From Sphingopyxis granuli NBRC 100800 (GTDB lineage Bacteria > Pseudomonadota > Alphaproteobacteria > Sphingomonadales > Sphingomonadaceae): DNA of 64,000 bases. Location: NCBI RefSeq assembly GCF_001591045.1, contig NZ_BCUA01000002.1, positions 62,001 through 126,000 of the forward strand, read 5' to 3'. Shown one piece after another: positions 2,380 to 36,892 of the stretch (positions are counted from its first letter, which is position 1; each line of letters starts with the position of its first letter). The notes beneath the pieces are model-generated. The model worked only from the letters and a program-made list of their open reading frames with translations, was not told where the DNA came from and did no database searches. The position numbers were made by a program, and so were the translations under genes.

Positions 2380-2404
2380 ATAATGGAGCCGGGAGGATGT
2401 GACG

Positions 2405-4165: not shown

Positions 4166-5772
4166 CCGACAACGACGCCATGCGCCACGACGTCATCGTC
4201 ATCGGCGCCGGACTGGCGGGGCTCTACATGCTCCACAAGCTGCGGCAGACCGGCCGACGGGCGATCGTCATCGAAGCCGGGTCGGACGTCGGGGGAACCT
4301 GGTACTGGAATCGATACCCGGGCGCGCGTTGCGACGTCGAAAGCCTCGACTATCAATATACATTCTCCGACGCGCTTCAGCGCGAATGGACGTGGAGCGA
4401 GCGCTTCGCCCGGCAGGACGAAATCCTGGCCTATATCAACCATGTCGCCGATCGCTTCGACCTGCGCCGCGACATTGTCTTCGATACCCGCGTCACGCGC
4501 GCACGCTTCGTCGAAGCGGCGGCCGAGTGGGAGGTCGAAGCCGATGACGGGTCGCGCCACGTCGCGCCGTTCCTGATCGCGGCGACCGGCGCGCTGTCGC
4601 TGCCGCAAACGCCGCCATTGCCGGGAATCGAGGATTTCAAAGGCGACGTCTATCATACGGGGCGCTGGCCGCACGACGGCGTCGACTTCACCGCGCGCAG
4701 GGTGGCGGTCGTCGGGACCGGCTCGTCCGGAATCCAGGCGATCCCGAACATCGCCGCGCAAGCCGAGCGCCTCTACGTCTTTCAGCGCACGCCGAATTTC
4801 AGCCTTCCCGCCCGGAATGCCCCCCTGACGGAGCAACAGGTGGAAGAACGCCGACGCAATTTCGCGGATATCGCGAGATCGAACAAGGCGTCCCCCAGCG
4901 GGCTTTACAGGCCGCCGTCCGACGTCGCGACCCGATCGGCCCTCGACGTGCCGGCGGAGCAGCGGGCCGCGGACTATGAGAAATGGTGGGACAGGGGTGG
5001 TACGCTGCTCATGCGGACGTACACCGACCTCCTGATCAACGCCGATTCGAACCGGACGGCGACCGAATTTGCCCAGCGCAAGATCCGCGACATGGTGGAG
5101 CGGCCCGACGTCGCCGACAAGCTGACCCCGCATTATCACATCGGGACGAAACGCATCTGCCTCGACAGCGGCTATTACGAGACGTTCAACCGTCCGAACG
5201 TCACGCTGGTCGACGTGAACGAGGACCCGATATCGACCATCACCGGCGACGCCATCGTCACCGCGGGACGGACCTGCCAAGTCGATGCCATCGTCTTCGC
5301 GACCGGCTATGACGCGATGACCGGCCCGCTGCTGGCGATGGACATCACGGGACGCGGAGGCCGGACGATGCGCGAGGCCTGGTCCGATGGTCCGCGGACC
5401 TATCTCGGTCTGTCGATCGCCGGTTTTCCGAACCTGTTCGTGGTCGCCGGCCCGGGCAGCCCCTCCGTGCTCGCCAATGTCATCCTGTCGATCGAGCAGC
5501 ATGTCGACTGGATCGCGGACTGCCTCGACCATATGCGCGACCGGGGGTTCGAGACGATCGAGGCGTCGCCCGACGCGCAAGACGCCTGGGTCGAGCATGT
5601 CAACGAGGTGGCGCAGGCGACGCTCTATCCCCGGACGAAATCCTGGTATTCGGGCTCCAACATCGCCGGAAAGCCGGAGATATTCATGCCCTATGTCGGT
5701 GGGCTCGGCCGGTACACCGCCCATTGCGCCGACGTCGCGCGCGACGGTTATGCCGGCTTCGTCCTTTCCTGA
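4162..5772 (+). CDS. Baeyer-Villiger-type flavin monooxygenase
   Basis: FAD- and NADPH-dependent monooxygenase of 536 residues. Two Rossmann motifs are present: GAGLAG at 15-20 (FAD) and GTGSSG near 190 (NADPH). Between them lies FKGDVYHTGRWP, a match to the Baeyer-Villiger fingerprint F-x-G-x3-H-T-x2-W-P. The GGTWYWNRYPGARCD stretch near 44-58 is typical of cyclohexanone and phenylacetone monooxygenases. Such enzymes insert oxygen next to a ketone, giving esters or lactones. ATG 4162 overlaps the preceding stop by 4 nt, so the two proteins are co-translated. It closes the plus-strand operon and is followed by a hairpin at 5812-5833. The ketone substrate is unknown. Confidence 0.92.
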   Translation: MTDNDAMRHDVIVIGAGLAGLYMLHKLRQTGRRAIVIEAGSDVGGTWYWNRYPGARCDVESLDYQYTFSDALQREWTWSERFARQDEILAYINHVADRFDLRRDIVFDTRVTRARFVEAAAEWEVEADDGSRHVAPFLIAATGALSLPQTPPLPGIEDFKGDVYHTGRWPHDGVDFTARRVAVVGTGSSGIQAIPNIAAQAERLYVFQRTPNFSLPARNAPLTEQQVEERRRNFADIARSNKASPSGLYRPPSDVATRSALDVPAEQRAADYEKWWDRGGTLLMRTYTDLLINADSNRTATEFAQRKIRDMVERPDVADKLTPHYHIGTKRICLDSGYYETFNRPNVTLVDVNEDPISTITGDAIVTAGRTCQVDAIVFATGYDAMTGPLLAMDITGRGGRTMREAWSDGPRTYLGLSIAGFPNLFVVAGPGSPSVLANVILSIEQHVDWIADCLDHMRDRGFETIEASPDAQDAWVEHVNEVAQATLYPRTKSWYSGSNIAGKPEIFMPYVGGLGRYTAHCADVARDGYAGFVLS

Positions 5773-6903: not shown

Positions 6904-7686
6904 TCAACGGCCGACCCATATGGGTTGGCGCTTGCCGGCGAAGGCGCGTGGTCCCTCGATGAAATCCTCACTCGCGCGCATGGCCTTGAGCGCCGGATAT
7001 TCGGCCGCGAGCGCCGCATGGACGCCGCCATGCTCGAGCCCCGCATAGGCGCATTGCTTGGTCGCCCGCACCGCGAGCGGCGAACATTTCAGGATTCGGT
7101 CCGCCCAGTCGCGCGCGCTCGCCATCAGTTGGTCGTGCGGAACGACCTCGTTGACGAAACCGAGCTCGCGTCCTTCGGCCGCATCGACGCGCCGCCCGGT
7201 GAGCAGCATGCCCATCGCCTGCTTCATCGGAATCATGCGCGCGAGCCGGTGGATTCCGCCGGCGACGGCGGCCAGCCCGACCAGCGGTTCGGGCAGGGCG
7301 AATACCGCCCTGTCCGACGCGACGATGATGTCGCTTGCAAGCGCGATCTCGAAGCCGCCGCCGAAGGCGATGCCGTTGACCGCCGCGATCACCGGCTTGG
7401 TGAGATCGCTGCGATGGGTGATGCCTCCGAAACCCGAGGGAGGAAAGGGCTTGCGGTCCTTGAGCGGCGTCGCGGCGGTGGCCTTCAGGTCGTTGCCCGC
7501 GCAGAAGGCCCGGTCGCCCGCTCCGGTCACGATCGCGACCCACAGATCGGCGTCGGCCGCGAACGCATCGAAGGTGGCGGCGAGCTCCTCGTGCGCGGCG
7601 TGATGAAGCGCGTTCATCACGTCGGGCCGGTTGATCGTGACCGTCAGGACACGCCCGTCGGTTTGCGTAGTGACAAATTCCCTCAC
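6904..7686 (-). CDS. enoyl-CoA hydratase/isomerase (crotonase)
   Basis: Crotonase of 260 residues. The oxyanion-hole motif AFCAGNDLK (about 60-68) and both catalytic glutamates are present: Glu113 in GGGFEIALASD and Glu133 in LPEPLVGL. It should hydrate 2-enoyl-CoA, or isomerise or dehydrate a related ester. The start is GTG 7686 with GGAGGT 5 nt before it. It is the first gene of an operon with two MaoC genes (5845-6860). The operator at 7776-7794 is almost identical to the one in front of the other crotonase of the region. Carnitinyl-CoA dehydratase-like annotation is common for such proteins, but the substrate cannot be named. Confidence 0.88.
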   Translation of the reverse strand: MREFVTTQTDGRVLTVTINRPDVMNALHHAAHEELAATFDAFAADADLWVAIVTGAGDRAFCAGNDLKATAATPLKDRKPFPPSGFGGITHRSDLTKPVIAAVNGIAFGGGFEIALASDIIVASDRAVFALPEPLVGLAAVAGGIHRLARMIPMKQAMGMLLTGRRVDAAEGRELGFVNEVVPHDQLMASARDWADRILKCSPLAVRATKQCAYAGLEHGGVHAALAAEYPALKAMRASEDFIEGPRAFAGKRQPIWVGR

Positions 7687-7846: not shown

Positions 7847-10165
7847 TCAGGACGGAAGCCCGAGGATCGACTTGGCGATGATGTTCTTCTGGATCTCCGT
7901 GGTGCCGCCCAGGATGGTGAAGACGCGCTGGTAGATATAGTTGGCGGTCGCCGTCCGGGTGAAATCCTCCGCCGGACCGAACCGGCGTTCGGGTGCGCGG
8001 CTGTCGGCGAACGAAAAGGGCAGCGCGTCCTCGCCGAGCATCTCCATGTTGAACTCGGCGATATCCTGGCCGAGCAATGTCGCGGCGATCATCGCCATCG
8101 ACACATCCTGCCCCACCGAGCCGGTTTCCCGGATGTCGGCGAGCAGGCGCGCGATCCACGCGTCGAGGGCGCGCATCCGTATCTTCAGCATCGTCAGCCG
8201 GGCCTTCAGGGCGGGGTGGTCGCCGAAGGGGCGACCGGCGGCGTCGAGCCGCCCGGCCGAACGGACCGCGCGGCCCATGGCCTGACGCAGGGCGAGCGAT
8301 CCGAGCACCCCCAATCGTTCGTGCGACAGCAGATATTTGGCGATCGACCAGCCGCGCCCCTCTTCGCCGACGCGATTCTCGACGGGCACTTCGACGTCCC
8401 GGAAGAAGACCTCGTTGAAGCCGTGATGTCCGTCGGCCGAGATGATGGGCCGCACCGTGATGCCGAACGAGCGCATGTCGGCGAGCAGGAAGGTGATGCC
8501 GTCCTGTCGCCTTTCCTCGCGGCTCGTCCGGACGAGCATGAATATCCAGTCGGCGTGCTGCGCCGCGGTGGTCCAGATCTTCTGGCCGTTCACGACATAA
8601 TGATCGCCGTGCCGGTCCGCGCGCGTCTGGAGCGAGGCAAGGTCGCTGCCGGCACCCGGCTCCGAATAGCCCTGACACCAGGAGGTCGTGCCCGCCATGA
8701 TCCCCGGCAGATGGCGCGCCTTCTGCTCGGCGGTGCCGAACGCATTGAGGATCGGCCCGGCCATCTTGATCCCGAACAGCGGCAGCCGCGGCGCGTTCAT
8801 CTCTGCGGTGATGGTCTCGAACAGGAACTGCTCGACCACCGAAAAGCCCGGACCGCCCTCCGCCTCGGGCCAACTGTACGCGAACCAGCCCTTGCGGCCC
8901 AGAGCCTGCTCCCATTCGAGGCGAAGGGCCTGCGGCGGCGTGCCTCCAGCCGCCGTGATGGCCCGCGTCTCTGGCGACAATTCGGCCTCGACGAAGGCCC
9001 GGATTTCTTCGCAGAACGTCGCCTCGGCCTCCGAGAGCGGCCCCGCCGTCCCGCCTGGTTCGCCATCGTCGAGCGCCGCGAACCGGTCGCAATGATGCCC
9101 GGCATCGCCGAAGATCGTCGACAGGAAGATGAGCTTTCGGAAATAATGGCTGACGATGCTTTCGTCGGTCGTGCCGATCGCGCCGTGAAACTGCACCGCG
9201 TCCTGACCGACCTTGCGCGCCGCCCGGCATCCCAGCACGCGGGCGGTCGCGACCGCGAGGCTTCGGTCCGCCGTGCCCGCCGCAAGCGCTGCGAAAGCCG
9301 CCCCGGTGGCGACCCGCGTTTCGGCGATCATGCGCAGCAGGTCCACGAGCCGATGCTGGACGACCTGGTTGGCGCCGATCGGACGCCCGAACTGCACCCG
9401 CTGTTTCACATGGTCCAGCGTCAGGTCGAAAAGGGCCTGCATGGCACCAAGCGCCTGGCTCGTCGCGGCGAGCGCCGCGAAGTCGAGCCCATCGTCGAGA
9501 ATCGCCTGCGCCTCCGCCCCCTCCGCGATCAGGCAATCGAGCGGCAGGCCGACGTCGTCGAAGCGGATATCGGCGCCACCTTGATTGTCGATCAGCGCAT
9601 AGCCGTCGCACTCGACGCCGGCGGTCGCGGCGGGAACGAGCAGCAAGGCCGGCGACCCCTCGGCCGACCGCGACGCGACGATCAGCGTGTCGGCATCGCC
9701 GCCGCCGATCACCACCGTCTTGCATCCGGACAGGCGAATGCGATCGCCGTCGACATGGTGGACCGTGGTGCCCGTCCGGCCGAAACGAGCCCCCGGTTCG
9801 GACCAGCCGAACGCCAGCCGCTCGCTGCCCTCGATCACTGACGCCAGACAGGCGGCCGCGCGGGCGGATCGATCGGCCGCGCGCTGGAGAAGCTGGAGGC
9901 CGATCATGTTCGCCAGAACGGGGGCGTCGAAAAGCCCGCGCCCCGTTTCTTCGAGCACGACCGCCGCCGCGGCCAGGCCCCGGTCGAAGCCTCCATGCGC
10001 GGGGTCGAGCCCGGCGAGCAGCAGGCCGCTGTCGCGAACGGCGGCCCAGACGTCGGGATCGCAGCGCCCGGTCGCACCGGCCGAATTCCAGATCGCCGGC
10101 CGCTTCCGTTCGACGAGCCGCCGGACGCTTTCGCGCAGCAGTTCCAGTTCGCTGTCCTCAGCCAC
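7847..10165 (-). CDS. double-domain acyl-CoA dehydrogenase (FadE34-like fusion)
   Basis: Protein of 772 residues made of two complete ACAD units. Unit 1 (about 1-370) has a QFGRPIGANQ motif and QFHGAIGTTDE. Unit 2 (about 385-772) has the flavin motif GYSEPGAGSDLASL and the C-terminal ILGGTTEIQKNIIAK. Ordinary ACADs are about 380-400 residues, so this is a tandem fusion of an alpha- and a beta-type subunit, as in mycobacterial FadE34, which acts on steroid side chains. GTG 10165 is the start, with AAGGGG 6 nt before it. Last gene of the 11-gene operon, 30 nt after the thiolase. Confidence 0.88.
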   Translation of the reverse strand: MAEDSELELLRESVRRLVERKRPAIWNSAGATGRCDPDVWAAVRDSGLLLAGLDPAHGGFDRGLAAAAVVLEETGRGLFDAPVLANMIGLQLLQRAADRSARAAACLASVIEGSERLAFGWSEPGARFGRTGTTVHHVDGDRIRLSGCKTVVIGGGDADTLIVASRSAEGSPALLLVPAATAGVECDGYALIDNQGGADIRFDDVGLPLDCLIAEGAEAQAILDDGLDFAALAATSQALGAMQALFDLTLDHVKQRVQFGRPIGANQVVQHRLVDLLRMIAETRVATGAAFAALAAGTADRSLAVATARVLGCRAARKVGQDAVQFHGAIGTTDESIVSHYFRKLIFLSTIFGDAGHHCDRFAALDDGEPGGTAGPLSEAEATFCEEIRAFVEAELSPETRAITAAGGTPPQALRLEWEQALGRKGWFAYSWPEAEGGPGFSVVEQFLFETITAEMNAPRLPLFGIKMAGPILNAFGTAEQKARHLPGIMAGTTSWCQGYSEPGAGSDLASLQTRADRHGDHYVVNGQKIWTTAAQHADWIFMLVRTSREERRQDGITFLLADMRSFGITVRPIISADGHHGFNEVFFRDVEVPVENRVGEEGRGWSIAKYLLSHERLGVLGSLALRQAMGRAVRSAGRLDAAGRPFGDHPALKARLTMLKIRMRALDAWIARLLADIRETGSVGQDVSMAMIAATLLGQDIAEFNMEMLGEDALPFSFADSRAPERRFGPAEDFTRTATANYIYQRVFTILGGTTEIQKNIIAKSILGLPS

Positions 10166-10195: not shown

Positions 10196-11434
10196 TCAGC
10201 CGATCCGTTCGATGATGATCGCGGGCGCCATGCCGCCGGCCGCGCACATGGTGACCAGCCCGCGTTCGATGTCGCGCCGTTCGAGTTCGTCGAGGATCGT
10301 GCCGATCAGGATCGCACCGGTGGCGCCGATCGGATGGCCGAGCGCCATGGCCCCGCCGTTCACATTGACCTTCTCGCGGTCGAGATCGAGATCACGGATG
10401 AACTTCTCAGCCACCACGGCGAACGCCTCGTTCACTTCGAAGAGGTCGATGTCCGCGAGTTCCATTCCGGTCTTGCGCAGGATTTTTCGGGCCGCCGGAA
10501 CGGGGGCGTTGAGCATCAGCGTCGGCGAATCCCCGGCGTTGGCCATCGCAACCACGCGGGCGCGCGGTTTCAGGCCATGCGCGCGCGCATAGTCGGGCGA
10601 TGCAAGGAGTAGGGCGGCCGACCCGTCGACGACGCCGGAGGAATTGCCCGCGTGATGGACATGGTCGATCTCGAGCCCGGGGAACGCCCGGGTCACGAGG
10701 TCGCGATAGGTGGTGCCGTCCGCGTCGACCACGATGTCGGCGAGCGCGGCGAAGGAGGGCTTGAGCGCCGCCAGGCTTTCCAGCGTCGTGTTCGGCCGGG
10801 GAAATTCCTCGCGGTCGAGCGCGACGGAGCCACCCTCGCGCACGACGCGGACAAGGCTGCGATCGAAGTGGCCGCCCCGGATCGCATGATCGGCGCGCTG
10901 CTGGCTGAGCAGCGCGAGCGCATCGAGATCGGCGCGGGAAATCCCTTCGATCGTCGCGATCGCGTCGGCGGCGACGCCCTGATGCGACTGGGGATGAGCG
11001 GCGCGCAGGTGCAGATTGCCGCAATCCATGACCGACGGTTTGTCGCTGCCGCGCCGTCCCGGCATCGACATCATCTCCGTGCCGCCGGCGACGACGAGGT
11101 CCTCCTGCCCCGCCATGATCGTGGCGGCCGCGAAGTTCACGGCGCTGATGCCCGAGCCGCAAAAGCGATCGAGCGTGATGCCGCTGCTCTCGACCGCGAA
11201 ACCGGCATCGAGCGCGGTCATCCGGCCGAGGTCGCCGCCCTGCGTATGAACCTGCGCGCTCGTTCCCCAGATCACGTCGTCGACGTCGCGCGTGTCGATC
11301 CCCGTTCGCTCCACCAGCGCGCGCAGCACCGTGGCGCCGAGTTGCTGCGGGTGGATGTCGGCGAGCGCACCCTTGCCCTGCTTGCCGATGCCACGCGGCG
11401 TTCGGCACGCGTCGATGATCCATGCTTCCGGCAT
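10196..11434 (-). CDS. acetyl-CoA acyltransferase (thiolase)
   Basis: Classical thiolase of 412 residues. All catalytic positions are present: nucleophile Cys92 in DRFCGSG, NEAFA, His367 in GGAMALGHPIGATG and Cys397 in CAAGGMAP. It cleaves 3-oxoacyl-CoA with CoA to release acetyl- or propionyl-CoA, the last step of a beta-oxidation turn. It lies 49 nt downstream of a HSD10-like dehydrogenase, which would supply the 3-oxoacyl-CoA. ATG 11434 has GGAAACGGGAA before it. Unlike the Ltp-type thiolase at 15955-17133, it is a true thiolase. Confidence 0.93.
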   Translation of the reverse strand: MPEAWIIDACRTPRGIGKQGKGALADIHPQQLGATVLRALVERTGIDTRDVDDVIWGTSAQVHTQGGDLGRMTALDAGFAVESSGITLDRFCGSGISAVNFAAATIMAGQEDLVVAGGTEMMSMPGRRGSDKPSVMDCGNLHLRAAHPQSHQGVAADAIATIEGISRADLDALALLSQQRADHAIRGGHFDRSLVRVVREGGSVALDREEFPRPNTTLESLAALKPSFAALADIVVDADGTTYRDLVTRAFPGLEIDHVHHAGNSSGVVDGSAALLLASPDYARAHGLKPRARVVAMANAGDSPTLMLNAPVPAARKILRKTGMELADIDLFEVNEAFAVVAEKFIRDLDLDREKVNVNGGAMALGHPIGATGAILIGTILDELERRDIERGLVTMCAAGGMAPAIIIERIG

Positions 11435-11483: not shown

Positions 11484-12266
11484 CTATCGCGGCTGCATCC
11501 GGATCGCTCCGTCGAGCCGGACGTGCTCGCCGTTGAAATATCCGCAGGTGATCATCGTCTCCGCGAGCTGCGCGAATTCGTCGACCCGGCCCAGCCGCTT
11601 CGGAAAGGGGACCTGTGAGGCCAGGCTTTGGCGCACCGCCTCGGGCGTGCGGCCAAGGAGGGGCGTGTCGAACAGCCCTGGCAGGATCGTGTTGACCCTG
11701 ATCCCTTCCGACGCAAGATCGCGCGCAACATTGAGCGTCAGCCCGACGATGCCAGCCTTCGAGGCGGCATAGGCGACTTGGCCGATCTGGCCTTCTTTTG
11801 CGGCGATCGAGGCGGTGTTGACGATCACCCCGCGCTCGCCTTCCGCGTCGGGTTCGAGCGCGAGCATCCCGGCCGCGCTGCTGGTGATGCAGCGGAACGT
11901 CCCCAGCAGGTTGATATCGATGATCCGCTCGAAATTCGCCATCGGATAGAGGCGCGCCTCGCCCGTCTCGCGGTCGCGGCCGGCGGTCCTGGCGCCGCCG
12001 CCCACCCCGGCGCAATTGACCAGGATACGCTCCTGCCCATGCGCGGCGCGGGCCTGCGCCAGCCCGGCGGCGACGCTCTCCATGTCCGAAACATCGACCG
12101 GACAGAACAGGCCGCCGATGTCCGCCGCGATCCGTTCGCCGCGTTCACGATCGATGTCGAACAGCGCCACCCGGACGCCGTGCGAGGCGAGACGCCGCGC
12201 CGTCGCCTCGCCGAGACCCGACGCGCCGCCGGTCACGACGGCCGAAACATGCGGACCCAATTCCAT
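11484..12266 (-). CDS. SDR, 3-hydroxyacyl-CoA dehydrogenase type 2-like
   Basis: Short-chain dehydrogenase of 260 residues. NAD-binding motif GGASGLG at 13-19, catalytic Ser153, Tyr166 and Lys170 (YAASK). The overall pattern (SIAAKEGQIGQVAYAASKAG, ARDLASEGIRVNTILPG) is that of the HSD17B10/HADH2 family, which oxidises 3-hydroxyacyl-CoA, including 2-methyl-branched ones, with NAD. Placed between the minimal ACAD (12 nt) and the thiolase, it fits the third beta-oxidation step of the operon. GAAGGAG lies 7 nt before ATG 12266. Confidence 0.88.
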   Translation of the reverse strand: MELGPHVSAVVTGGASGLGEATARRLASHGVRVALFDIDRERGERIAADIGGLFCPVDVSDMESVAAGLAQARAAHGQERILVNCAGVGGGARTAGRDRETGEARLYPMANFERIIDINLLGTFRCITSSAAGMLALEPDAEGERGVIVNTASIAAKEGQIGQVAYAASKAGIVGLTLNVARDLASEGIRVNTILPGLFDTPLLGRTPEAVRQSLASQVPFPKRLGRVDEFAQLAETMITCGYFNGEHVRLDGAIRMQPR

Positions 12267-12278
12267 TTCGATTCTCCT

Positions 12279-13046
12279 TCACGTCGAACGCTGCAGGCCG
12301 ACGACGATCTCGATCGCCGGTGCGTCGTCGTCGAGCACCGCGGCCCCCAGCCGTTCGTCCCAATAGGTGGCGCCGCCGTGCGCCATGCCGAGCGCCCGCA
12401 ACCGCGCGGCAAGACCGCCCAGCGCATGCTCCCCGCTGATGCCGATCGCGCCATGGACCGCATGGGCGGTCGCCGTGACGACGCGGGCCGCGCGCGTGGC
12501 GCGGGACTTGGCGATGGCCACCAGCGCATCCCGGGGCGGACGCCGCCACCCGGCAAAGGCCGCTTCGGTGGCGATGCGCGCAGCGAAGACATGCTCCGCC
12601 ATCACCGCGATCTGGTGCTGCACCGCCTGAAAACGCGCGATGGGCCCGCCGAACTGCTCGCGGACACGCGCATAGTCGACGGTCATGTCGAGCAGCGCCT
12701 CCATGAGGCCGACCATCGAGCCCGCGGCGAGCAGGGCGGCGAGCGGCCGGGCAACGTCGGCGCAGCCGCGATCGACGAGAAACCGTTCGATATCCGCGAC
12801 CGCGAGCGCGTCCGGCTCGTGGCGGCGCGCCACGATGGTCTGCACGACCGGCAGCGCGGGGCGCAGCCGGGCCGCGGCGACCGCGAGGCCGAAGAGGCCG
12901 TCGATCCCGACCCCGGCACCGCCTTCGGATTCGGGCCGGCACAGGTCAAGGAAACCCGCGGCGAGAAGTTCGCCCCACGGGTCGGCGGCGTCCGCCGCGC
13001 GCAGGCAGCGGTCGAACTGTTCGAGCAGAAGCGGATCGATCGTCAT
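12279..13046 (-). CDS. minimal acyl-CoA dehydrogenase-like subunit lacking the middle domain
   Basis: Only 255 residues, against 350-400 for the family. Residues 1-75 resemble part of the N-terminal ACAD helical domain, and residues from about 105 the C-terminal domain (REQFGGPIARFQAVQHQIA, HAVHGAIGISGEHALGG). The beta-barrel middle domain, about 120 residues that normally contact FAD and acyl-CoA, is reduced to a short linker. The ATG overlaps the stop of the full-length ACAD upstream (TGATG), so they are made together. I infer a structural partner in a heteromeric dehydrogenase similar to ChsE1-ChsE2. Codon usage looks like the neighbours and the frame is intact, so it is not a pseudogene. 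Confidence 0.8.
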   Translation of the reverse strand: MTIDPLLLEQFDRCLRAADAADPWGELLAAGFLDLCRPESEGGAGVGIDGLFGLAVAAARLRPALPVVQTIVARRHEPDALAVADIERFLVDRGCADVARPLAALLAAGSMVGLMEALLDMTVDYARVREQFGGPIARFQAVQHQIAVMAEHVFAARIATEAAFAGWRRPPRDALVAIAKSRATRAARVVTATAHAVHGAIGISGEHALGGLAARLRALGMAHGGATYWDERLGAAVLDDDAPAIEIVVGLQRST

Positions 13047-14194
13047 CAGCGAAGCCCCAATCCGCGCGCGATGATCCCGCGCAGCACTTCGCGCGTTCCG
13101 CCGCGCAGCGAGAAGGAGGGCGCCATCGCGGCGGTATAGTCCAGCGCCGCGGCGAGGTCGGCCGGGATCGGCGTGCCGAGCGAGGCGAGATGCTCGGCGA
13201 TCCGTTCGGGAACATCCTGTTCGAAACGGGTCCCCAGATCCTTGACGATCGACGCCTCGGTGACCGGGCTTTCGGGGTCGTCGAGCCGCGCGGTGACGGC
13301 GAGGGACATCTGCCGCAGCGCGCCGAGCTCCGCGATCAGCCGGCCGGCGAGCGCGCGGTCGGTCGCGGTCGTTTCGCGGCGGCCGCGCACGAAGACCAGC
13401 CACTGGTCCAGCAGCACCATGCTCGAATAGAGGCGTTCGGGGCCGCTGCGTTCGAAGGCCAGTTCCTTCATCACCTGCGCCCAGCCTTCGCCCTCGCGCC
13501 CGACGAGCGCATCCTCGCCCAGTTCGACGTCGTCGAAATGTACTTCGGCAAAATGCGCATCCCCCGCCAGATCGAGGATCGGCCGGCGCGTCACGCCGGG
13601 CAGCGAAAGGTCGACGATGAACTGCGACAGCCCCTTTTGCCGATCGCCGGGCTTTCCCGACGTGCGGACGAGCGCGATCATGAAGTGGGCGAGATGGCCG
13701 TTCGTCGTCCAGATCTTCGACCCGTTGAGCCGCCAGCCGCCGCCCGACGGGGTGGCGCTGGTGCGGACGCCGGCCAGGTCGGACCCCGCCCCCGGCTCGC
13801 TCATGCCGATGCAGAAATGCGCCTCGCCGCGGCATATCCGCGGAATATAATGCGCCTGCTGAGCCTCGGTGCCGAAGTTCAGCAGCAGCGGCGCGCTCTG
13901 CCGTTCGGCGATCCAATGCGCGGCGACCGGCGCACCGGCGGCGAGCAGTTCCTCGTTGAGAACGAAGCGCGCGAAATGGCTTCGCCCGCCGCCGCCAAGG
14001 CGGCGCGGCAGCGTCAGCCCCACCCAGCCGCGTTCGGCGAGGCGGGCGCTGAAGGCGGCGTCATAGCCGAGCCACGATCGCGCGCGGCGGCCGGCGGGCA
14101 GTTCGCGAAGCTCCCGGTCCAGAAAGGCCCGGACCTCGCCGCGAAGCGCCTCGTCCCCGGCGGGGATGGCGGTCAGTTCGAGCGGGCGGATCAT
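13046..14194 (-). CDS. acyl-CoA dehydrogenase, catalytic partner
   Basis: ACAD of 382 residues beginning MIRPLELTAIPAGDE. The frame is open to 14251, but the family N-terminus fits ATG 14194. The middle domain carries GMSEPGAGSDLAGVRT (FAD and acyl-CoA contacts) and the end SLRGGTREVLRGIIARGLG. Its stop overlaps the start of the minimal ACAD-like gene by one base. Full-length plus truncated subunits encoded side by side point to an alpha2beta2 enzyme. It sits 70 nt downstream of an acyl-CoA synthetase gene in the 11-gene operon. Confidence 0.87.
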   Translation of the reverse strand: MIRPLELTAIPAGDEALRGEVRAFLDRELRELPAGRRARSWLGYDAAFSARLAERGWVGLTLPRRLGGGGRSHFARFVLNEELLAAGAPVAAHWIAERQSAPLLLNFGTEAQQAHYIPRICRGEAHFCIGMSEPGAGSDLAGVRTSATPSGGGWRLNGSKIWTTNGHLAHFMIALVRTSGKPGDRQKGLSQFIVDLSLPGVTRRPILDLAGDAHFAEVHFDDVELGEDALVGREGEGWAQVMKELAFERSGPERLYSSMVLLDQWLVFVRGRRETTATDRALAGRLIAELGALRQMSLAVTARLDDPESPVTEASIVKDLGTRFEQDVPERIAEHLASLGTPIPADLAAALDYTAAMAPSFSLRGGTREVLRGIIARGLGLR

Positions 14195-14264
14195 GCGCGC
14201 GCTCCGCCGGGCACAGCGGCGCCCGCAGCGGCGCGGCGGCCGCCCTGCCATCGAGGAAGCCGAG

Positions 14265-15962
14265 TCATCTTTTTTCGATCACGATCGACGACGCCGCGCG
14301 GTCCCAGGTCGCGGCGGTGATGCCCTCGGCCCGCAGTCGGTGCTTCATCACGCGCCCAGTGGGCGTGCGCGGCAGTTCGGTGCGGAACTCGATGAAGCGG
14401 GGAACGGCGTAATAGGGAACGCGCTCGATCGACCACCGGCACAATTCCTCCGCGTCGACCGTCATGCCGTCGCGCGGAATCGCCACCACCTTCAGCTCGT
14501 CCTCCGACACCTCGGACGGAACGGCGTGGACCGCCACATCCTCGATCGCGGGATGGGCGCGAAAGACCGCCTCGATCTCGAAACTCGAAATATTCTCGCC
14601 GCCGCGGCGCAGATAATCCTTCTTGCGATCGACGAAGGTCAGATAGCCGTCGGCGTCGATCGACACGATGTCGCCCGAGTGGAACCAGAGGTCGCCGAAC
14701 ACCGCCATCGTCTCGACCGGGCGCCCCCAGTAGCCGGTGAACATGACGTTGGGGCGCACCGGACGCAGCAGCAGTTCGCCTGGCACGCCGGGCGGGCATT
14801 CCTCGCCCCGGTCGTCGACGACGCGTGCATCGAAGTCGGGCGACAAGATGCCCGACGTCCCCGGCCTTTCCCGGCCGATGCGGCGATAGGCGACCGGCGC
14901 CGCCTCGGTCATGCCGAACGCATGGTTCCCGACGATCGCCGTTCCGAAGCGTTCGCGCCAGATCGTCTCGATCGGGGGCGGAAAGGGAACCCCCAGCGCA
15001 CAGCGCACCTGGCCGAAGCAGCGCGCCGCGACATCGCTGTCGGGGGCGTGGGCGATCAGCGCGATCATCGACCCCATCAGATTGACCTGCGTCGCCCCGC
15101 TCGCCTCCACCTCGCACCAGAAGCGGCCGAGCGAAAAGCGTTCGAGCAGGACGGACCGGGCACCGACCATCATTGAGGCGAGGATCAGGTTCGTGGTCGC
15201 GGCGATGTGGAAAAGCGGCAGCGGGCTGAGCACGACATCGTCCTGGCGGCGGTCGGTCGCCTCGCGGACCCGGCCGCTCATCGTCAGGACATAGCCGTGC
15301 GGGAGCGCGCAGCCCTTCGACGGCCCGGTGGTGCCGGAGGTGTAGATGATCAGCGCGATGTCGCCGGGCTCGACCCGCGACGCGACGGGCTCGTCGCCGC
15401 ATGCGCGCAGGAGCGAGAAGTCGGGAAATTCATCGCCCTGCCCCCCGCGCGCGATGATGGTGCGCAGCGCCGTCAGTTCGGACCGGATCGCCGTCACGCG
15501 CGGGATGTAATGCGCCTCCGCGATCAGCAGCGCCGATCCCGCGTCGTTGATCTGGTGGCTGAGGAAGCCGCCCTTCAGGGCGGTGTTGAGCGGCACCGCG
15601 ATCGCGCCCAGCTTGTTAATCGCAAACCAGATGAGGACGGCGTCGTCGCTGTTGTCGAGCATCGTCGTGACCGTCGCGCCCTTGACCACCCCCTGCGCCT
15701 CCAGCCCGCGGGCGAGCCGGTCCGCCTCGCGGTCGAACGCGGCGAAGCTGTAGGAAACGTCGCCGAACTCCAGAAAGGTCCGATCGGGCCATTGGCGCAC
15801 CGCCTCGGCGAGCAGGCCGGGGATCGTCATCTGGCCCGCCTGGCTCCAGAGCGGCCCCGCGTCCGCCGGGCGGTAGGGGCGCGCCGCCGATGTCGGGGCG
15901 GATTCTGCGGATTCGGAAGGGACAGGCATCGGCTCCAACTCTCTCGCCATCATGTCATGCAT
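14265..15962 (-). CDS. AMP-dependent acyl-CoA synthetase
   Basis: ANL-superfamily ligase of 565 residues: P-loop YTSGTTGPSKG, FGMTEAAP (A5), HSGDIVSIDADGYLTFVDRKKD (A7/A8 region) and RRGGENISSFEIE. It activates a carboxylic acid as acyl-AMP and transfers it to CoA. The A10 lysine that contacts the adenylate is replaced: LPRTPTGRVMK has Arg537 where GK is expected. The start overlaps the end of the Ltp-like gene by 8 nt; internal ATGs at 15953 and 15950 are possible. Probably activates the substrate or an intermediate of the operon's pathway. Confidence 0.88.
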   Translation of the reverse strand: MHDMMARELEPMPVPSESAESAPTSAARPYRPADAGPLWSQAGQMTIPGLLAEAVRQWPDRTFLEFGDVSYSFAAFDREADRLARGLEAQGVVKGATVTTMLDNSDDAVLIWFAINKLGAIAVPLNTALKGGFLSHQINDAGSALLIAEAHYIPRVTAIRSELTALRTIIARGGQGDEFPDFSLLRACGDEPVASRVEPGDIALIIYTSGTTGPSKGCALPHGYVLTMSGRVREATDRRQDDVVLSPLPLFHIAATTNLILASMMVGARSVLLERFSLGRFWCEVEASGATQVNLMGSMIALIAHAPDSDVAARCFGQVRCALGVPFPPPIETIWRERFGTAIVGNHAFGMTEAAPVAYRRIGRERPGTSGILSPDFDARVVDDRGEECPPGVPGELLLRPVRPNVMFTGYWGRPVETMAVFGDLWFHSGDIVSIDADGYLTFVDRKKDYLRRGGENISSFEIEAVFRAHPAIEDVAVHAVPSEVSEDELKVVAIPRDGMTVDAEELCRWSIERVPYYAVPRFIEFRTELPRTPTGRVMKHRLRAEGITAATWDRAASSIVIEKR

Positions 15963-17133
15963 CGGCGCGCAGCACGACCCCGCTGGTCGGCACCCCGGTT
16001 CCCGCGGTCACCAGCACGTTGCGGCAATCCTCGACCTGGTTGACGGCGGTGCCGCGGATCTGGCGCACCGCTTCGTTCAGGCCGTTCATGCCATGGATAT
16101 ACGCCTCTCCGAGCTGGCCGCCGTGCAGGTTGATCGGCAGTTTCCCGCCATGTTCGATATTGCCGCCGGCGATGAAGTGCCGCGCCTCCCCCCGCGCGCA
16201 AAAACCCAGTTCCTCGAGCTGGAGCAGGACGAAGGGGGTGAAATGGTCGTAGAGGATCGCGCAGTCGATGTCGGAGGGCGCCATGCCGCTCTGCGCCCAG
16301 AGCTGCCGCCCGACCATCGCCATTTCCGGAAGGCAGGCGATGTCGTCGCGCGCATAGCTCGTCATCGCCTCCTGCCCCGCCGCCGCGCCCTGCGCGGCGC
16401 CTGCGATATGGACGGGGCGATGCGGAAGGTCGCGCGCGCGCTCCGCGCTCGTCACGACCACCGCGACGCCGCCGTCGCTTTCCTGGCAGCAATCGAGAAG
16501 GTGAAGCGGATCGACGATCCAGCGCGAGGCCTGATGTTCCTCGATCGTGATCGGCTTTTCGTAGAACCAGGCATTGGGATTGGTGGCCGCATGCTTGCGG
16601 CACGCAACGGCGACGCGCCCGAAATCCTCGCTCGTCGCGCCATATTCATGCATGTAGCGCCGCGCGACCATCGCGATGAACGAGGCGGGCGTGGCCAGGC
16701 CGAACGTGGTGTACCAGCCCATGTTGATGCCCTGCGAGGTCGCCACCGGGACGGCGGGAGCGCCGAAGCGGTTCCCCGACCGTTCGTTGAACGCGCGATA
16801 GCAGACGACATAATCGGCGAGCCCGGCATTGACGGCCAGCGACGCGAGCATGATCGTCGCGCAGGTGCCGCCGCCGCCGTATGGCGTGCGGGTGAAGAAG
16901 CGCAGCCCCTGCATGCCGAGGCTGCGCGCCACGTCGATTTCGGAACTGGTGTCCGACATGAAGGTCACCAGGCCGTCGATGTCGGAGGGCTTGAGACCGG
17001 CGTCGCGCAGCGCGTGCTGCGTGGCCTCGATCGCCAGTTGCAGTTCGGACCGGCCCGACTGCTTGGAAAATTCGGTGGCGCCGATGCCGACGATCGCGGT
17101 CTTTCCGGTCGGAAAGCTGGTTGAACTGGTCAT
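15955..17133 (-). CDS. Ltp2-like thiolase-fold aldolase
   Basis: Protein of 392 residues with the SCP-x/lipid-transfer thiolase fold. The thiolase signature GHPLGATG is replaced by LGEAYIHGMNG, and the active site shows Tyr295 (LYDHFTPF) and Tyr345 (EAYIHG). These match the two tyrosines described for Ltp2, the retro-aldolase that ends cholesterol side-chain removal by releasing propionyl-CoA. Ltp2 works only with the DUF35 domain of ChsH2, and here the gene overlaps by 4 nt (ATGA) the gene for a DUF35-containing fusion protein. I infer a retro-aldol C-C cleaving enzyme. A simple thiolase role is unlikely because the GHP motif is missing. Confidence 0.85.
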   Translation of the reverse strand: MTSSTSFPTGKTAIVGIGATEFSKQSGRSELQLAIEATQHALRDAGLKPSDIDGLVTFMSDTSSEIDVARSLGMQGLRFFTRTPYGGGGTCATIMLASLAVNAGLADYVVCYRAFNERSGNRFGAPAVPVATSQGINMGWYTTFGLATPASFIAMVARRYMHEYGATSEDFGRVAVACRKHAATNPNAWFYEKPITIEEHQASRWIVDPLHLLDCCQESDGGVAVVVTSAERARDLPHRPVHIAGAAQGAAAGQEAMTSYARDDIACLPEMAMVGRQLWAQSGMAPSDIDCAILYDHFTPFVLLQLEELGFCARGEARHFIAGGNIEHGGKLPINLHGGQLGEAYIHGMNGLNEAVRQIRGTAVNQVEDCRNVLVTAGTGVPTSGVVLRADA

Positions 17134-18422
17134 TTGCTTGTCTCGCTATCCCGAATGCTGAACTGCGCCTCGAACCCGCCGCCGAGCGGTGTCGATGCGG
17201 TAATCGCGAAGTCGTGCGCGCCGGACCGACTCCCCCGGATCGTGAGGACGGTGTCCGCCAGCACGGGCCGGCCCGCCGCGACCTCGAACATTTCGATGCG
17301 CCCCGGATCGTGACGGCGCAGATAATCGTGCGCGAAGGCGGCCGCGCTCGCGAGGTCGAGGACGGTCGCCGCATAGCCCGCGGCGCGCGCGGCGGCGGGG
17401 TCGCGATGCAGCGGCGACAGGTTGTTGCCGGCGACCGCGGCGCCCGCGACGCGCGCCGCCGGAAGCTCGATATCGACCGGCTCCAGCCCGGTCTCGGCAC
17501 CGAGGCACGCGGGAAGGATCCCGTCTCCGTCCGCGGGGACGAACAGCGGCATCGCACGTTCGAGGCTGTTCGCGGGCCGGAACCGGACCTCTACCTCCAT
17601 ACCGATCCGGACGTCCGCGGGATCGATTCCGACGATGTTGCTGACGATGCGAACGCCTTCGTCGAGCGCGATCAGGCCAACGACATAAGGCGACGGCAGA
17701 TCGCCCAGCCGCGAATGGTTGATCGTGAAGCTGTGGACCGTGCCGCGGCCCGATGCGGTGACCGTATCCCACGACAGCGACCCGCAGGCGGGGCAGCTCG
17801 GCCCGGGCGGATGGCGAAGCGTCCCGCATTCCTTGCAGCGCTGGATGAGCAGAAGCCCGCGATCGACCCCGTCCCACCAGAAGCGATTGTCGTTGGCCAC
17901 GAGCGGCTGCGGCCATCGCGAGCGGCCCGTTGGCGCAGGCCCGGCGTTTCGCTGCAGGATGGTGAGTTCGACGATAGAAGACGAGGCGCCGCCATCGCCC
18001 GATATTCCGGCGGCGATCCGGACCGCTCGCCCCGCGCCGACCGCGCTTTCCTCGTAATCCTCGACCGGTCCCGCCGACAGCGACACGCGCACCGGCTGGC
18101 CGACGGCGATCTCGCCCGACAGGTGCGTGCGGATCCGGATGACCTGCGGCGGCGCCACGCCCTCTCCGCCGGCGCCGAACAGCCGCGGCAGGAGGCCGCC
18201 TTGCTCGCATGCGGCGCACGCGAGCGCGGGGAGGAAGGCCGCCGGAACCGCCATCCCGTCGCGGGGCGGGTCGAGGTCCAGGCCGAGCGCGGCCGACCAG
18301 CGCGCAATGTCGAATGCGGTCACCGGCCCCATATCGACAACCACGGACCCGGTCACGGGTGCTGCCCCGTCTCCGCCGGAATCCGGGCGGCTCGAATCGT
18401 TCAGTGTCAGCTCTTCAGCCAT
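17130..18422 (-). CDS. MaoC-DUF35-MaoC tripartite fusion, aldolase/hydratase scaffold
   Basis: Protein of 430 residues in three parts. Residues about 25-158 form a MaoC N-terminal-like hot-dog. About 175-305 are a DUF35 unit: a zinc ribbon with Cys196, Cys199, Cys210 and Cys213, then an OB-fold (GTVHSFTINHS, YVVGLIALDEGVRI). About 315-425 are a C-terminal MaoC hot-dog with NNLSPLHRD, where Asn334 stands in place of the hydratase Asp and His339 is kept. In Mycobacterium, ChsH2 is MaoC-DUF35 and ChsH1 a separate MaoC; here both appear joined. ATG 18422 has GGGAG 7 nt upstream. The stop overlaps the aldolase gene start. Confidence 0.85.
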   Translation of the reverse strand: MAEELTLNDSSRPDSGGDGAAPVTGSVVVDMGPVTAFDIARWSAALGLDLDPPRDGMAVPAAFLPALACAACEQGGLLPRLFGAGGEGVAPPQVIRIRTHLSGEIAVGQPVRVSLSAGPVEDYEESAVGAGRAVRIAAGISGDGGASSSIVELTILQRNAGPAPTGRSRWPQPLVANDNRFWWDGVDRGLLLIQRCKECGTLRHPPGPSCPACGSLSWDTVTASGRGTVHSFTINHSRLGDLPSPYVVGLIALDEGVRIVSNIVGIDPADVRIGMEVEVRFRPANSLERAMPLFVPADGDGILPACLGAETGLEPVDIELPAARVAGAAVAGNNLSPLHRDPAAARAAGYAATVLDLASAAAFAHDYLRRHDPGRIEMFEVAAGRPVLADTVLTIRGSRSGAHDFAITASTPLGGGFEAQFSIRDSETSK

Positions 18423-18502: not shown

Positions 18503-19303
18503 TCATGCGAGACTGATGAACATGCCGCCATTCGCGAAAAGATGCTGGCCGGTGATGTAGGAGGCGGCATCGGACAGCAGGAAGCAGACGGGATGCGCCG
18601 CCTCCTCGACCTGCCCCCAGCGCCCCAGCGGAATGCGGGCGAGCGTCGCGGCCCCGAATCGCTCGCCGCGTATCGTCTCGGTCATCGCGGTTTCGATCAC
18701 GCCGAAGCCGACGCTGTTGCACCGGACGCCGAAACGCCCCCATTCGCGCGCGGTCGCCATCGTCATGCCGAGGAGTCCGCTTTTCGCGGCGGCATAGTTG
18801 AGCTGTCCGACCGTTCCCGTTCGACCGGCGTCCGACGAGATGTTGACGATCGCCCCGCCGGAGTGCCCCGCCTCGGCGCGCGCAAGCATGTGCTCGCCGA
18901 CGAGCTGCGTCCAGATGAAGGTGCCGGTCAGGTGGACGTCGATGACCTCGCGCCACTGCTGCATCGTCATCTTCTCGATCAGCGCCGGGCGCAGGATTCC
19001 CGCGTTGTTGACGAGGCCGTCGATGCGTCCGAAGCGCTCCAGCGTGGCGTCGACGCATCGTGCGGCGGCCGCCTCGTCCACCACGTCGGCGACCGCGCCC
19101 ATCAGCCGGGCGCCATGCTGCGCCTCCAGTTCCTCCAGCCCCGCGGGGTCGCGGTCGACGACCGTCACGCTCGCCCCCAGCGCCAGAACGCCTTCGGCGA
19201 TCGCCCGGCCGACGCCGCGCCCGCCGCCGGTGACGACGACATGGCGTCCGGCAAGCGAAATCGCGTCCGCGCCGACGGCGGCGGTGATGCCCGCGCCGCT
19301 CAT
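18503..19303 (-). CDS. SDR family oxidoreductase
   Basis: Short-chain dehydrogenase of 266 residues: TGGGRGVG (25-32), NNAG (99-102), Ser156/Ser157, Tyr170 and Lys174. It ends with SYITGQHLFANGG, usual for the FabG-like classical SDRs. It probably oxidises or reduces a hydroxyl or keto group of a CoA ester or ring. ATG 19303 overlaps the stop of the acyl-CoA synthetase upstream (ATGA). It is followed after 80 nt by the DUF35 fusion gene. Cofactor preference and substrate are not clear. Confidence 0.85.
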   Translation of the reverse strand: MSGAGITAAVGADAISLAGRHVVVTGGGRGVGRAIAEGVLALGASVTVVDRDPAGLEELEAQHGARLMGAVADVVDEAAAARCVDATLERFGRIDGLVNNAGILRPALIEKMTMQQWREVIDVHLTGTFIWTQLVGEHMLARAEAGHSGGAIVNISSDAGRTGTVGQLNYAAAKSGLLGMTMATAREWGRFGVRCNSVGFGVIETAMTETIRGERFGAATLARIPLGRWGQVEEAAHPVCFLLSDAASYITGQHLFANGGMFISLA

Positions 19304-20919
19304 GCGCCCAGATACCCGGCCGCCGGAACGTCCCACGTTCCGGGGCTGTTCCAGGCCTCGCGCAGCTTGAACCGCTGCACCCGCTCGCTGCCGAACGTGC
19401 GCGGCAGTTCATCGACGATCTCGATATATTTCGGCATCATGTAGGTCGGCAGCGTCTCCGCCGAATAGGCGGCGATGTCGGCCGGCGCGATGGCCGATGC
19501 GCTGTCTTTCACGATCACAAGCTTCACCTCGTCTTCCCCCAGGTCCGAAGGCACCGCGATCGCGCTGCACTCCGCGACACCCGGCATCTGGCGGATCACC
19601 GTCTCGATCTCGCTGGGCGCGATGCCCATCGCGCGCCGCCGGATCAGGTCGCGCTTGCGTTCGACGAACCAGTAATGGCCTTCGGCGTCGCGGCGGAAAT
19701 AGTCGCCGAAATGCACCCATCCGCCGCGCACCTTCTCCGCCGACGCCTCGGGGTCGTTGAAGTAGGTGACGACCGGCGCGAAATCGCGCGCGCGCATGAT
19801 GAGTTCGCCGATCTCCCCGTCCGGAACGTCCCGGTCGTCGTCATCGACGATACGCGCCTCATATTCCTTCCACGGCCTGCCGACCGATCCCGGCGGCGCG
19901 CTTCCGTCGTTGGTCATCCAGCACCCGCCCGAATCCACCGAGGAATAGCATTCGAAGATCTGCGCATTGAACCGCTCCTCGAACGGCACCCAGGCATCGG
20001 CCGGCATCGCCGCCGACGTGACGACGATCCTGCCGTGGGCGCCGTCTTCCGGCTTTTTCGGCTGGTTCAGCAACATGCGCGGCATGGTGCCCATCAGGTG
20101 GATATGATCGCATTTCCGGTCATGGAAATCCTGCCAGAGCCGGCTGGCGCTGAAGCGCGGAGGGATGACCACCGAGCCGCCGAGCGCGAAGGCGATGCAC
20201 GTCTGCCACACCGCCGCCGTATAGCCCCAGGACAGGGCGATATAGACTTTCGGCGGATGGTCGAAACAGCCCCATTTGCGCGCCGCGATCAGGCCGCCGC
20301 CCGCCCATGACTGGCCAAGGACGACCCCCTTCGCCTCGCCCGTGGTTCCCGACGTGCCCATGATCAGGGCGGGGTCGGTGATCGCCGGATAATCGCGCGC
20401 CAGAAAGGGCGTCACGCTGTGCCCCGTCTCGACCGCGCCGCAGAATTCGGGGCCATGGCCATCGAGGACAGCCGGCGGCGACGCGGCCGCCGCGGCGGCT
20501 TCGCACGCCGCTTCGAAACAGGCTTCGTCGGCGATCACCAGCGAGAGGCGATAGCGTTCGAACAGCCGGGTCAGCAGCGCGCCGCTCATCTGATAGTTGA
20601 TCGGGCACAGCACCGCGCCGATGAGCGTGGTCGCGAGAAGCGTGTACAGGGCGTGCGGGTGCCCCCGGAACATGTAGCCGACATGATCGCCGCGTCCGAT
20701 CCCCCGGCTTTCGAGCAGGCGGGCGATGCCGCCGATCGCCTTCGTCGCCTCGCCATAGCTGATCCGCCGGTCTTCATATTCGACCGCCAGCCGGTCGGCC
20801 GGCGCCGCCGCGATCTTCGCGACGATGTCGGCAAAGCGGATTCCGGCCGGATATCCGGCGGCGGTAAGAATGTCGGCTATCGAGGGCTCGCTTTCGCGAG
20901 CCGGGGCGTCATCGTGCAT
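19300..20919 (-). CDS. AMP-dependent acyl-CoA synthetase
   Basis: ANL ligase of 539 residues with P-loop MGTSGTTGEAKG, YSSVDSGG in the A5 position and HFGDYFRRDAEGHYWFVERKRD (A7/A8). The hinge region reads RRRAMGIAPSEIE, a departure from the common RGGENI form. The A10 lysine is again replaced by arginine: GSERVQRFKLRE, Arg513. I chose ATG 20919 (GAGG 8 nt upstream) over GTG 20958. It overlaps the SDR gene by 4 nt and lies 48 nt after the crotonase gene. It should convert a carboxylic acid to its CoA ester, perhaps a different intermediate from that of the 14265-15962 enzyme. Confidence 0.87.
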   Translation of the reverse strand: MHDDAPARESEPSIADILTAAGYPAGIRFADIVAKIAAAPADRLAVEYEDRRISYGEATKAIGGIARLLESRGIGRGDHVGYMFRGHPHALYTLLATTLIGAVLCPINYQMSGALLTRLFERYRLSLVIADEACFEAACEAAAAAASPPAVLDGHGPEFCGAVETGHSVTPFLARDYPAITDPALIMGTSGTTGEAKGVVLGQSWAGGGLIAARKWGCFDHPPKVYIALSWGYTAAVWQTCIAFALGGSVVIPPRFSASRLWQDFHDRKCDHIHLMGTMPRMLLNQPKKPEDGAHGRIVVTSAAMPADAWVPFEERFNAQIFECYSSVDSGGCWMTNDGSAPPGSVGRPWKEYEARIVDDDDRDVPDGEIGELIMRARDFAPVVTYFNDPEASAEKVRGGWVHFGDYFRRDAEGHYWFVERKRDLIRRRAMGIAPSEIETVIRQMPGVAECSAIAVPSDLGEDEVKLVIVKDSASAIAPADIAAYSAETLPTYMMPKYIEIVDELPRTFGSERVQRFKLREAWNSPGTWDVPAAGYLGA

Positions 20920-20967
20920 GTTCGATACCTCGGCCAGGATTGACGGAAGCGGCGTCACGGGCCGCGT

Positions 20968-21831
20968 TCAGGATTCGGCTTGCTTGAACGGCGCATCGCG
21001 CCAGGCGATCGCCGCGTTCACGCCGTCCTTCGCCGCGATCTCGATGAAGCGGTCGAAAGCGGGCGTCGTGTGGTACATCGCGTTATAGTCCGCGCCGGCA
21101 TAGACCGCGGTCCGCAGCCCGCCGATCTCGTCCCAGCGGTTCACGAGATGCTTGACCGTCGTCAGCGCATCGAGCGGAACGTTCGCGATCTTGCGGCACG
21201 TCGCCATGACGTGCGCATCGAGCGCATCGTCCGACACCGCCGCGTTGATCATCCCGAGCCGTTCGGCCTCGGCGGCGCCGATCATGTCGCCGGTGAACAG
21301 CAGCTCCTTCGCCTTGATCGAACCGATCTTGAGCGGCCACTGGCCGATCGTGACGGGGATGCCGTGCGCGCGCGAGGGCGGGTGCCCGAACCGCGCGCTT
21401 TCGGCGGAGAAGATGAGGTCGCAGGAACCGATGAGTTCGATGCCGGCGCCGAGGCAATAGCCGTGCACCTGCGCGACCACGGGCTTGCGATAGCTCCACA
21501 GATGAAGATGCCGGTCGGCCAGCGTCCGCAGCCAGACCCGGTCGCGCCACAGCTGCGCCTCGCCGAGATCGGCCGCATTCGCGCCCTTCGGGGGCGATTC
21601 CTCGAGATATTTGTCATAGATCTGGCCCATGTCGCCGCCGGCGCAGAAGGACCGGCCCTCGCCCTTCAGCCGGATCACCCGCACGGCATCGCCCGGGTCC
21701 AGCTCGGCCAGCGCGTCGAGCAGTTCGACGTGCATGGTTTCGTTGAGCGCGTTCAGCCGCTCCGGGCGATTGAAGGAGATCGTGGCGACCGGACCGTCGA
21801 TTTCGACCTTGATCTCTTTAAATTCGGGCAT
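20968..21831 (-). CDS. crotonase-family enoyl-CoA hydratase or hydrolase, one catalytic Glu missing
   Basis: Crotonase of 287 residues with oxyanion-hole motif SFCAGGDMGQ and Glu132 in GAGIELIGSCD. The second glutamate position is Ser153 (FGHPPSRAHG), so classical hydration using two Glu residues is doubtful. Crotonases with one acid often act as CoA-ester hydrolases, ring-opening enzymes or isomerases, but which applies here is unknown. First gene of the 11-gene minus-strand operon. Its promoter carries the perfect GTATGGT-N5-ACCATAC palindrome at 21856-21874, shared with the divergent MarR gene. Confidence 0.82.
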   Translation of the reverse strand: MPEFKEIKVEIDGPVATISFNRPERLNALNETMHVELLDALAELDPGDAVRVIRLKGEGRSFCAGGDMGQIYDKYLEESPPKGANAADLGEAQLWRDRVWLRTLADRHLHLWSYRKPVVAQVHGYCLGAGIELIGSCDLIFSAESARFGHPPSRAHGIPVTIGQWPLKIGSIKAKELLFTGDMIGAAEAERLGMINAAVSDDALDAHVMATCRKIANVPLDALTTVKHLVNRWDEIGGLRTAVYAGADYNAMYHTTPAFDRFIEIAAKDGVNAAIAWRDAPFKQAES

Positions 21832-36858: not shown

Positions 36859-36892
36859 CGGTTCACTTCCTTGGAAAAATGATGGAACTCGG

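Follow-up and report, generated by a model that had tools for sequence, protein, structure and literature searches.

In the closest known systems, those of the ChsH1-ChsH2 and Ltp2 type (the M. tuberculosis igr type, with structures 4w78 and 4wnb, and T. curvata, with structure 6ok1), a MaoC-DUF35 protein, ChsH2, and a ChsH1-type MaoC hot dog are found with an Ltp2-type aldolase. Here we analyse P0002, a protein encoded in a 64,000-nucleotide window of Sphingopyxis granuli NBRC 100800 (contig NZ_BCUA01000002.1, positions 62,001 to 126,000), which has the same parts beside an Ltp2-type aldolase gene but, unlike those systems, carries the ChsH1 part in the same chain, has Asn in place of the catalytic Asp and is strongly eroded in both MaoC halves. 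PMC11321319 and PMC12502768 set out three forms: ChsH2 on a chain apart from ChsH1, a fused pair of MaoC domains that lacks DUF35, and DUF35-MaoC. Among double-hot-dog chains, HtdX (by superposition) and ChsH3, CasD and CasQ (by description, PMC11321319) resemble P0002 in having two hot dogs per chain; unlike P0002, all four are described there as lacking a DUF35 between them. In Shy, which acts with Sal, DUF35 joins a hydratase to an aldolase, as is proposed here, but Shy is reported to have DUF35 N-terminal to a single MaoC, an active dyad and a C5 side chain as substrate (PMC11321319). ChsH2-, ChsH1- and Ltp2-type genes stand together, as here, in C. testosteroni TA441 (ORF40-44) and in 11 loci from the family of our organism, the Sphingomonadaceae (L150–L160); unlike P0002, the family loci keep ChsH2 and ChsH1 as separate open reading frames (ORFs) about 1 kb apart. 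A partial literature survey found no description of a MaoC-DUF35-MaoC fusion.

The P0002 gene (17130..18422, minus strand, read from 18422 to 17130) is a fully open frame of 430 amino acids. Its ATG lies 7 nt past an AGGGAG, and the GC content at third codon positions (GC3) is 0.85, 0.83 and 0.85 in the three parts of the frame, with coding-type codon-position GC throughout. A preliminary description of this DNA had placed the gene correctly at 17130–18422; the strand, which it left unstated, is minus. The plus strand of the interval offers only an unrelated antisense frame. A frameshift or chance fusion is ruled out by the unbroken frame and codon pattern, together with the same domain order in eight actinobacterial loci.

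The domain order is MaoC-DUF35-MaoC, as had been proposed, and this was borne out by Pfam for the DUF35, by matches of the C-terminal part to ChsH1-like ORFs and by the modelled hot dogs. The central DUF35 (residues 171–301, 17520..17912, minus strand) consists of the zinc ribbon and OB fold typical of ChsH2, both above the Pfam cut-off (zf-ChsH2, PF12172, 183–218; OB_ChsH2_C, PF01796, 221–282), and this middle part matched ChsH2(DUF35) 6ok1_B among Protein Data Bank (PDB) sequences with E 5.5e-33. Reading the zinc ribbon from the sequence gives four Cys (C196, C199, C210 and C213). Zinc-ribbon Cys are lost in 8 of 11 family ChsH2 rows (L006, L007, L009, L010, L011, L013, L018 and L020) and retained in L003, L004, L005 and P0002. 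The N-terminal hot dog (residues 25–159, 17946..18350, minus strand), which is ChsH2-MaoC-like, had no Pfam match. For the C-terminal hot dog (residues 316–424, 17151..17477, minus strand), FAS1_DH (E 0.006) and MaoC (E 0.06) both fell below the Pfam cut-off, but this part matched separate ChsH1-like ORFs near ChsH2-like ORFs in family genomes (E 4.7e-5 to 1e-3), and ChsH1 of another genome retrieved it reciprocally (E 0.001). These matches, weak but mutual, and the predicted hot-dog fold identify the domain as kin to ChsH1. A further value of E 2e-29 does not count as independent support, since the window sequence had been used to seed the profile that gave it. Against PDB sequences the C-terminal domain alone gave no convincing match, with MaoC-type rows at E 0.65–0.7; the top rows, glycolate oxidases at E 0.04–0.05, were taken as chance.

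An AlphaFold2 model of P0002 built from 79 rows (mean predicted local distance difference test (pLDDT) score 85, predicted template modelling (pTM) score 0.70) contains both hot dogs, so the preliminary claim of two such domains stands. Taken as a unit, the pair can be superposed on hydratases of the double-hot-dog kind (5i7n, Z 25.9, 2.4 Å, 250 residues; HtdX, Z 25.6, 230/233 residues), and the DUF35 part superposes on 6ok1_B (Z 18.9, 1.7 Å, 130 residues). The ChsH1-ChsH2 structures 4w78 and 4wnb were not among the 50 structure rows listed for this model, which carries no evidential weight; 4w78_E is among the rows listed for a control model of an actinobacterial fusion, L147 (pLDDT 89.5), for which a double hot dog is likewise predicted (5i7n, Z 26.5, 2.9 Å, 255). 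P0002 is almost certainly a fusion of ChsH2 with ChsH1. The model supports, as a prediction, a single chain that supplies both halves of the hydratase and carries DUF35 in its linker. The preliminary description had suggested just this, with docking of the aldolase by the same chain, and its structural part fits: the two predicted hot dogs are packed as a hydratase pair, and the DUF35 is intact and of the aldolase-docking kind.

Asn334 (codon AAC, 17421..17423, minus strand) and His339 (codon CAT, 17406..17408, minus strand) fall, without gaps, in the alignment columns that hold Asp and His in ChsH1 domains. The Asp column holds Asp in all 43 other aligned ChsH1 domains that have a residue there, drawn from 89 loci with all four parts, and Asn in none of them. 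Asn334 next to a retained His339 is therefore abnormal, as the preliminary description had it, and is no ordinary variant of the family. In a wider profile search that took in other MaoC proteins, Asp-His was present in 121 of 124 rows; two of the remaining rows were the window's own locus, found twice, and one was gapped. The Asp-His dyad, termed highly conserved in the subfamily (PMC2698920), is replaced by Asn334/His339 in P0002. The N-terminal hot dog, with its predicted fold and an unaligned dyad segment, we count as the non-catalytic ChsH2 type, but it retains only 13 of 43 conserved positions.

Damage to the hydratase is not limited to one residue. The C-terminal hot dog retains 11 of 35 conserved positions (reference n = 35 rows, lowest 0.91) and the N-terminal hot dog 13 of 43 (n = 34 rows, lowest 0.84), against 20 of 23 for DUF35 (n = 34 rows, lowest 0.78). 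An earlier count agrees (C-terminal 10/29, N-terminal 13/37, DUF35 21/25), although its N-terminal reference set had a row at 0.14. Identities, taken as medians over local alignments, follow the same pattern: compared with eight fused actinobacterial loci, the window shows 68% for the aldolase, 51% for DUF35, 31% for the C-terminal and 30% for the N-terminal hot dog, whereas the 11 family loci, compared as a control with the same eight, show 65, 50, 48 and 45%. For the window, the corresponding values are 68, 44, 24 and 38% (the last over 29 residues only) against the other 70 actinobacterial loci, and 63, 50, 24 and 31% against the 11 family loci. From these identities and the conserved-position counts, we conclude that evolution on the aldolase side matches that in relatives, whereas evolution of both hydratase halves does not. 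The lesion that the preliminary description had seen at Asn334 is real, but it is one part of a whole hydratase half that has eroded.

How much activity could survive such changes? In a P. capsici MaoC hydratase, D194N, which makes Asn of the equivalent Asp, is reported to leave 2.6 U/mg, about 4% of activity, the wild type being about 61 U/mg as inferred from '91.2, about 1.5 times' (PMC3823801). The hydratase of P0002 is probably dead or nearly so. An alternative is that the fused hydratase remains active, its site altered to Asn334 and His339 and its substrate perhaps smaller or not a steroid, with hydratase and aldolase in one channelled chain. His339 is kept, the frame is intact and the hot-dog model is of high confidence; in addition, the KshA_C family is absent from the genome (see below), which leaves room for a substrate other than the usual steroid. 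But Asp occupies the position in 43 of 43 other domains, the reported residual activity of D194N is small and 24 of 35 conserved positions of the C-terminal hot dog are changed, and we regard an active fused enzyme as unlikely. Less likely still is that the C-terminal hot dog has become, under new selection and not by simple loss, a non-catalytic binding or structural module for a ligand, CoA or a dimer interface. The confident fold and a frame maintained despite low identity would fit this idea, for which ChsH2 offers a precedent as an inert hot dog reported to hold steroid rings (PMC11321319). However, no second member of the variant was found in the searched genomes to reveal selection at the altered positions, and relaxed constraint would look the same here.

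Two further explanations concern the gene as a whole. That it is a decaying, functionless relic would agree with erosion of both MaoC halves and with the lack of a second genome with a P0002-like protein among those searched, but the frame is open, there is a ribosome-binding site, GC3 is of the coding type in all parts, and DUF35 and the overlapping aldolase gene have normal conservation; we consider a relic very improbable. As for an assembly or sequencing artefact that joined two genes or altered the Asp codon, the assembly is a draft of 181 contigs and a change from Asp to Asn takes one base. Against this, 24 of 35 conserved positions differ rather than one, the same fusion order occurs in eight other assemblies, and frame and codon pattern are unbroken, which leaves an artefact hardly credible.

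The fusion itself is not new to this genome, although the preliminary description had treated it as the novelty. A genome scan with the aldolase as the query, which is no census, returned at least 80 loci, all actinobacterial by title and 63–70% identical. Of the 80 listed loci, all but L073 and L144 have a DUF35 ORF, and in 8 of these 78 (L075, L077, L082, L083, L098, L107, L123 and L147), all from Actinomadura or Actinoallomurus, the ORF continues into a ChsH1 domain. These proteins share with P0002 the domain order in one chain and the position upstream of Ltp2, and in L147, which was modelled, the predicted double hot dog; unlike P0002, they have the Asp-His dyad in place and conserved MaoC halves. 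Three of the eight were scanned with Pfam, and in each of them the zinc ribbon of ChsH2, the OB fold, FAS1_DH and MaoC exceeded the cut-off. In an aldolase tree of 90 rows, the eight fused loci form one clade (100/99), and the window aldolase, which has a long branch (0.84), falls neither in this clade nor in that of the family. An approximately unbiased (AU) test rejected neither a joint clade with the eight fused loci (p 0.06) nor one with the family loci (p 0.40). On the tree, an independent origin of the window fusion and the Actinomadura fusion is the favoured reading. In the same tree, L146, a contig labelled as a Bifidobacterium breve metagenome-assembled genome (MAG), has an Ltp2 locus beside those of uncultured actinobacterial MAGs and is probably mis-binned.

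The eroded variant was found in no other searched genome. The genome sets searched overlap and include the own genome, and the family, class, order and phylum scans scored the best 4–6 candidates per genome. At E up to 1e-33, the order genomes (n = 396) contained a full-length member in the own genome only, and the phylum genomes (n = 398) gave matches in the own genome and G978 only, the latter covering residues 166–294. The ChsH2/ChsH1/Ltp2 locus of G978 is an ordinary one: Asp and His are present, and an acyl-CoA dehydrogenase lies between ChsH2 and ChsH1. At E up to 1e-5, no other full-length member occurred among the matches listed for 298 family and 289 class genomes or in 80 genus genomes; among the matches listed, those in other genomes that extend past residue 304 hold stop codons. 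None of the 218 plasmid records with a match covered 80% of P0002. The combination of an eroded hydratase half, an intact aldolase-partner module and a spare hydratase pair in the gene run (below) was found in no other searched genome and nowhere in the surveyed literature.

The gene for the aldolase, P0003 (15955..17133, minus strand), overlaps the fusion gene by 4 nt, so that P0002 has an Ltp2 aldolase as its immediate neighbour, as is typical of ChsH2. P0003 is an Ltp2-type retro-aldolase with PRK07855 above the cut-off, and its best PDB match is Ltp2 itself (6ok1_A, E 1.8e-172). It contains YDHF and a second Tyr: Tyr295, His297 and Tyr345 align with the base Tyr294, His296 and the second Tyr, Tyr344, of TcLtp2, whose roles have been reported (PMC12329534). 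In TA441, the DUF35 part is described as essential for the aldolase and as able to work even if the MaoC part is not expressed with it as one protein (PMC12502768). The own genome has no other Ltp2 above 31% identity and no second MaoC-DUF35 protein, the sole other match being a DUF35-only frame. P0002 is very probably the partner of this aldolase.

Hydration might then come from elsewhere in the same gene run, which extends on the minus strand from 21831 to about 5845 and presumably forms one transcript. Upstream of P0002, the run holds genes for a short-chain dehydrogenase/reductase (SDR; 18503–19336), an acyl-CoA ligase (19300–20958) and a crotonase (20968–21831). Downstream of the aldolase come an AMP-forming acyl-CoA ligase (14265..15962), two acyl-CoA dehydrogenases (13046–14251 and 12279–13076), an SDR dehydrogenase (11484..12266), a thiolase (10196..11434), a double acyl-CoA dehydrogenase in one chain (7847..10165) and a crotonase-type enoyl-CoA hydratase (6904..7686), all on the minus strand. 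In gene content, the run corresponds to a CoA-dependent pathway of side-chain removal. The double dehydrogenase (772 amino acids) has two acyl-CoA dehydrogenase domains in PimD/PimC-like halves, so that a dehydrogenase pair of the run is fused as well.

At the end of the run, about 10 kb downstream of the fusion gene and on the same strand, lie two stand-alone hot dogs, an intact hydratase pair that the preliminary description had overlooked. P0006 (6294..6866, start inferred) is ChsH2-MaoC-like without DUF35 (4w78_A, E 0.02, which is weak; FAS1_DH_region, E 8.5e-18), and P0005 (5845..6294, start inferred) is a ChsH1-like MaoC with Asp and His present (SMDMFPGHH) and a match to 4w78_B (E 2.7e-11). 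The closest P0005 matches in 249 family genomes are 37–40% identical and come from two genomes (G094 and G177); a ChsH1 search of the own genome up to E 0.01 gave no further match. That this pair supplies the hydration is a tentative proposal. A second group of related genes in the window, at 34816–38611 on the minus strand, comprises a second SCP2-thiolase (35668–36858), FAS1_DH (35213–35671) and an acyl-CoA ligase (36893–38611). A MaoC with Asp and His present (34816–35220, minus strand, start inferred) pairs with this FAS1_DH.

On balance, we lean towards P0002 as an aldolase partner and scaffold with a dead or weak hydratase. In this scheme, the natural fusion would join ChsH2, with its inert MaoC and DUF35, to ChsH1, whose MaoC is catalytic elsewhere; the chain would fold back so that its two hot dogs make one double hot dog, with the DUF35 module predicted to sit in the loop between them. 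The DUF35 would dock on the Ltp2-type aldolase, which would need it, and the aldolase would cut a propionyl-CoA-type unit off a ring-bound side chain. P0002 would serve mainly as partner and scaffold because its hydratase half appears to have lost catalysis or nearly so, and hydration would come from another enzyme, most plausibly the dyad-intact ChsH1/ChsH2-MaoC-like pair.

Several observations weigh against this scheme. His339 is retained, and water might still be positioned by Asn; a fold that is being maintained is suggested by the confidently predicted double hot dog; and the erosion rests on one sequence, with no second member of the variant found in the searched genomes. P0005 is only moderately ChsH1-like, as it keeps 21 of the 35 positions conserved in ChsH1. 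The role of the downstream pair may lie in a different cycle or with a different substrate, and the two crotonases of the run could hydrate too. Nor is P0002 the sole DUF35: the DUF35-only frame, on contig C57, is 39% identical over 76 residues and adjoins a thiolase-like protein that is 29% identical.

The substrate may not be a classical steroid. KshA_C (PF19298), the marker of the KshA step in the 9,10-seco steroid route, is absent from the own genome (completeness 100), whereas all 11 compared family genomes, in which chsH2, chsH1 and ltp2 are separate genes, gave a match to it; those genomes were chosen for carrying this locus, KshA is one marker only, and PF19298 also takes in other oxygenases, with up to 11 matches per genome. 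This difference makes it likely that the run removes the side chain of a non-classical substrate, or that it goes no further than removing a side chain. Ibuprofen-type chemistry was also considered. A similar mix of genes is described for the bile-salt cluster bsd I of C. tardaugens (amidohydrolase, monooxygenase, acyl-CoA dehydrogenase pair, ligase and MaoC; PMC12882949), a likeness at the level of described gene content. Amidohydrolase and FMO-like monooxygenase genes (2399–5772, plus strand) adjoin the run on the opposite strand, as described for bsd I. The most complete version of our scheme is doubtful: a dead double-hot-dog scaffold would present DUF35 and perhaps bind the ring, the separate dyad-intact pair would hydrate, and the substrate would be a ring with a branched side chain and not a classical steroid. 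The absence of the KshA_C family raises the question of what the enzymes of the run degrade.

More widely, P0002 would show that a double hot dog can accommodate an entire zinc-ribbon/OB module within the linker, and the dyad-intact Actinomadura fusions are ready single-chain material for structural work and steroid biocatalysis. The tight coupling of ChsH1-ChsH2 and Ltp2 has been explained by cleavage pulling an unfavourable hydration, as put forward in PMC11321319. With its aldolase-partner part kept and its hydratase part eroded, P0002 would test the need for coupling between hydratase and aldolase.

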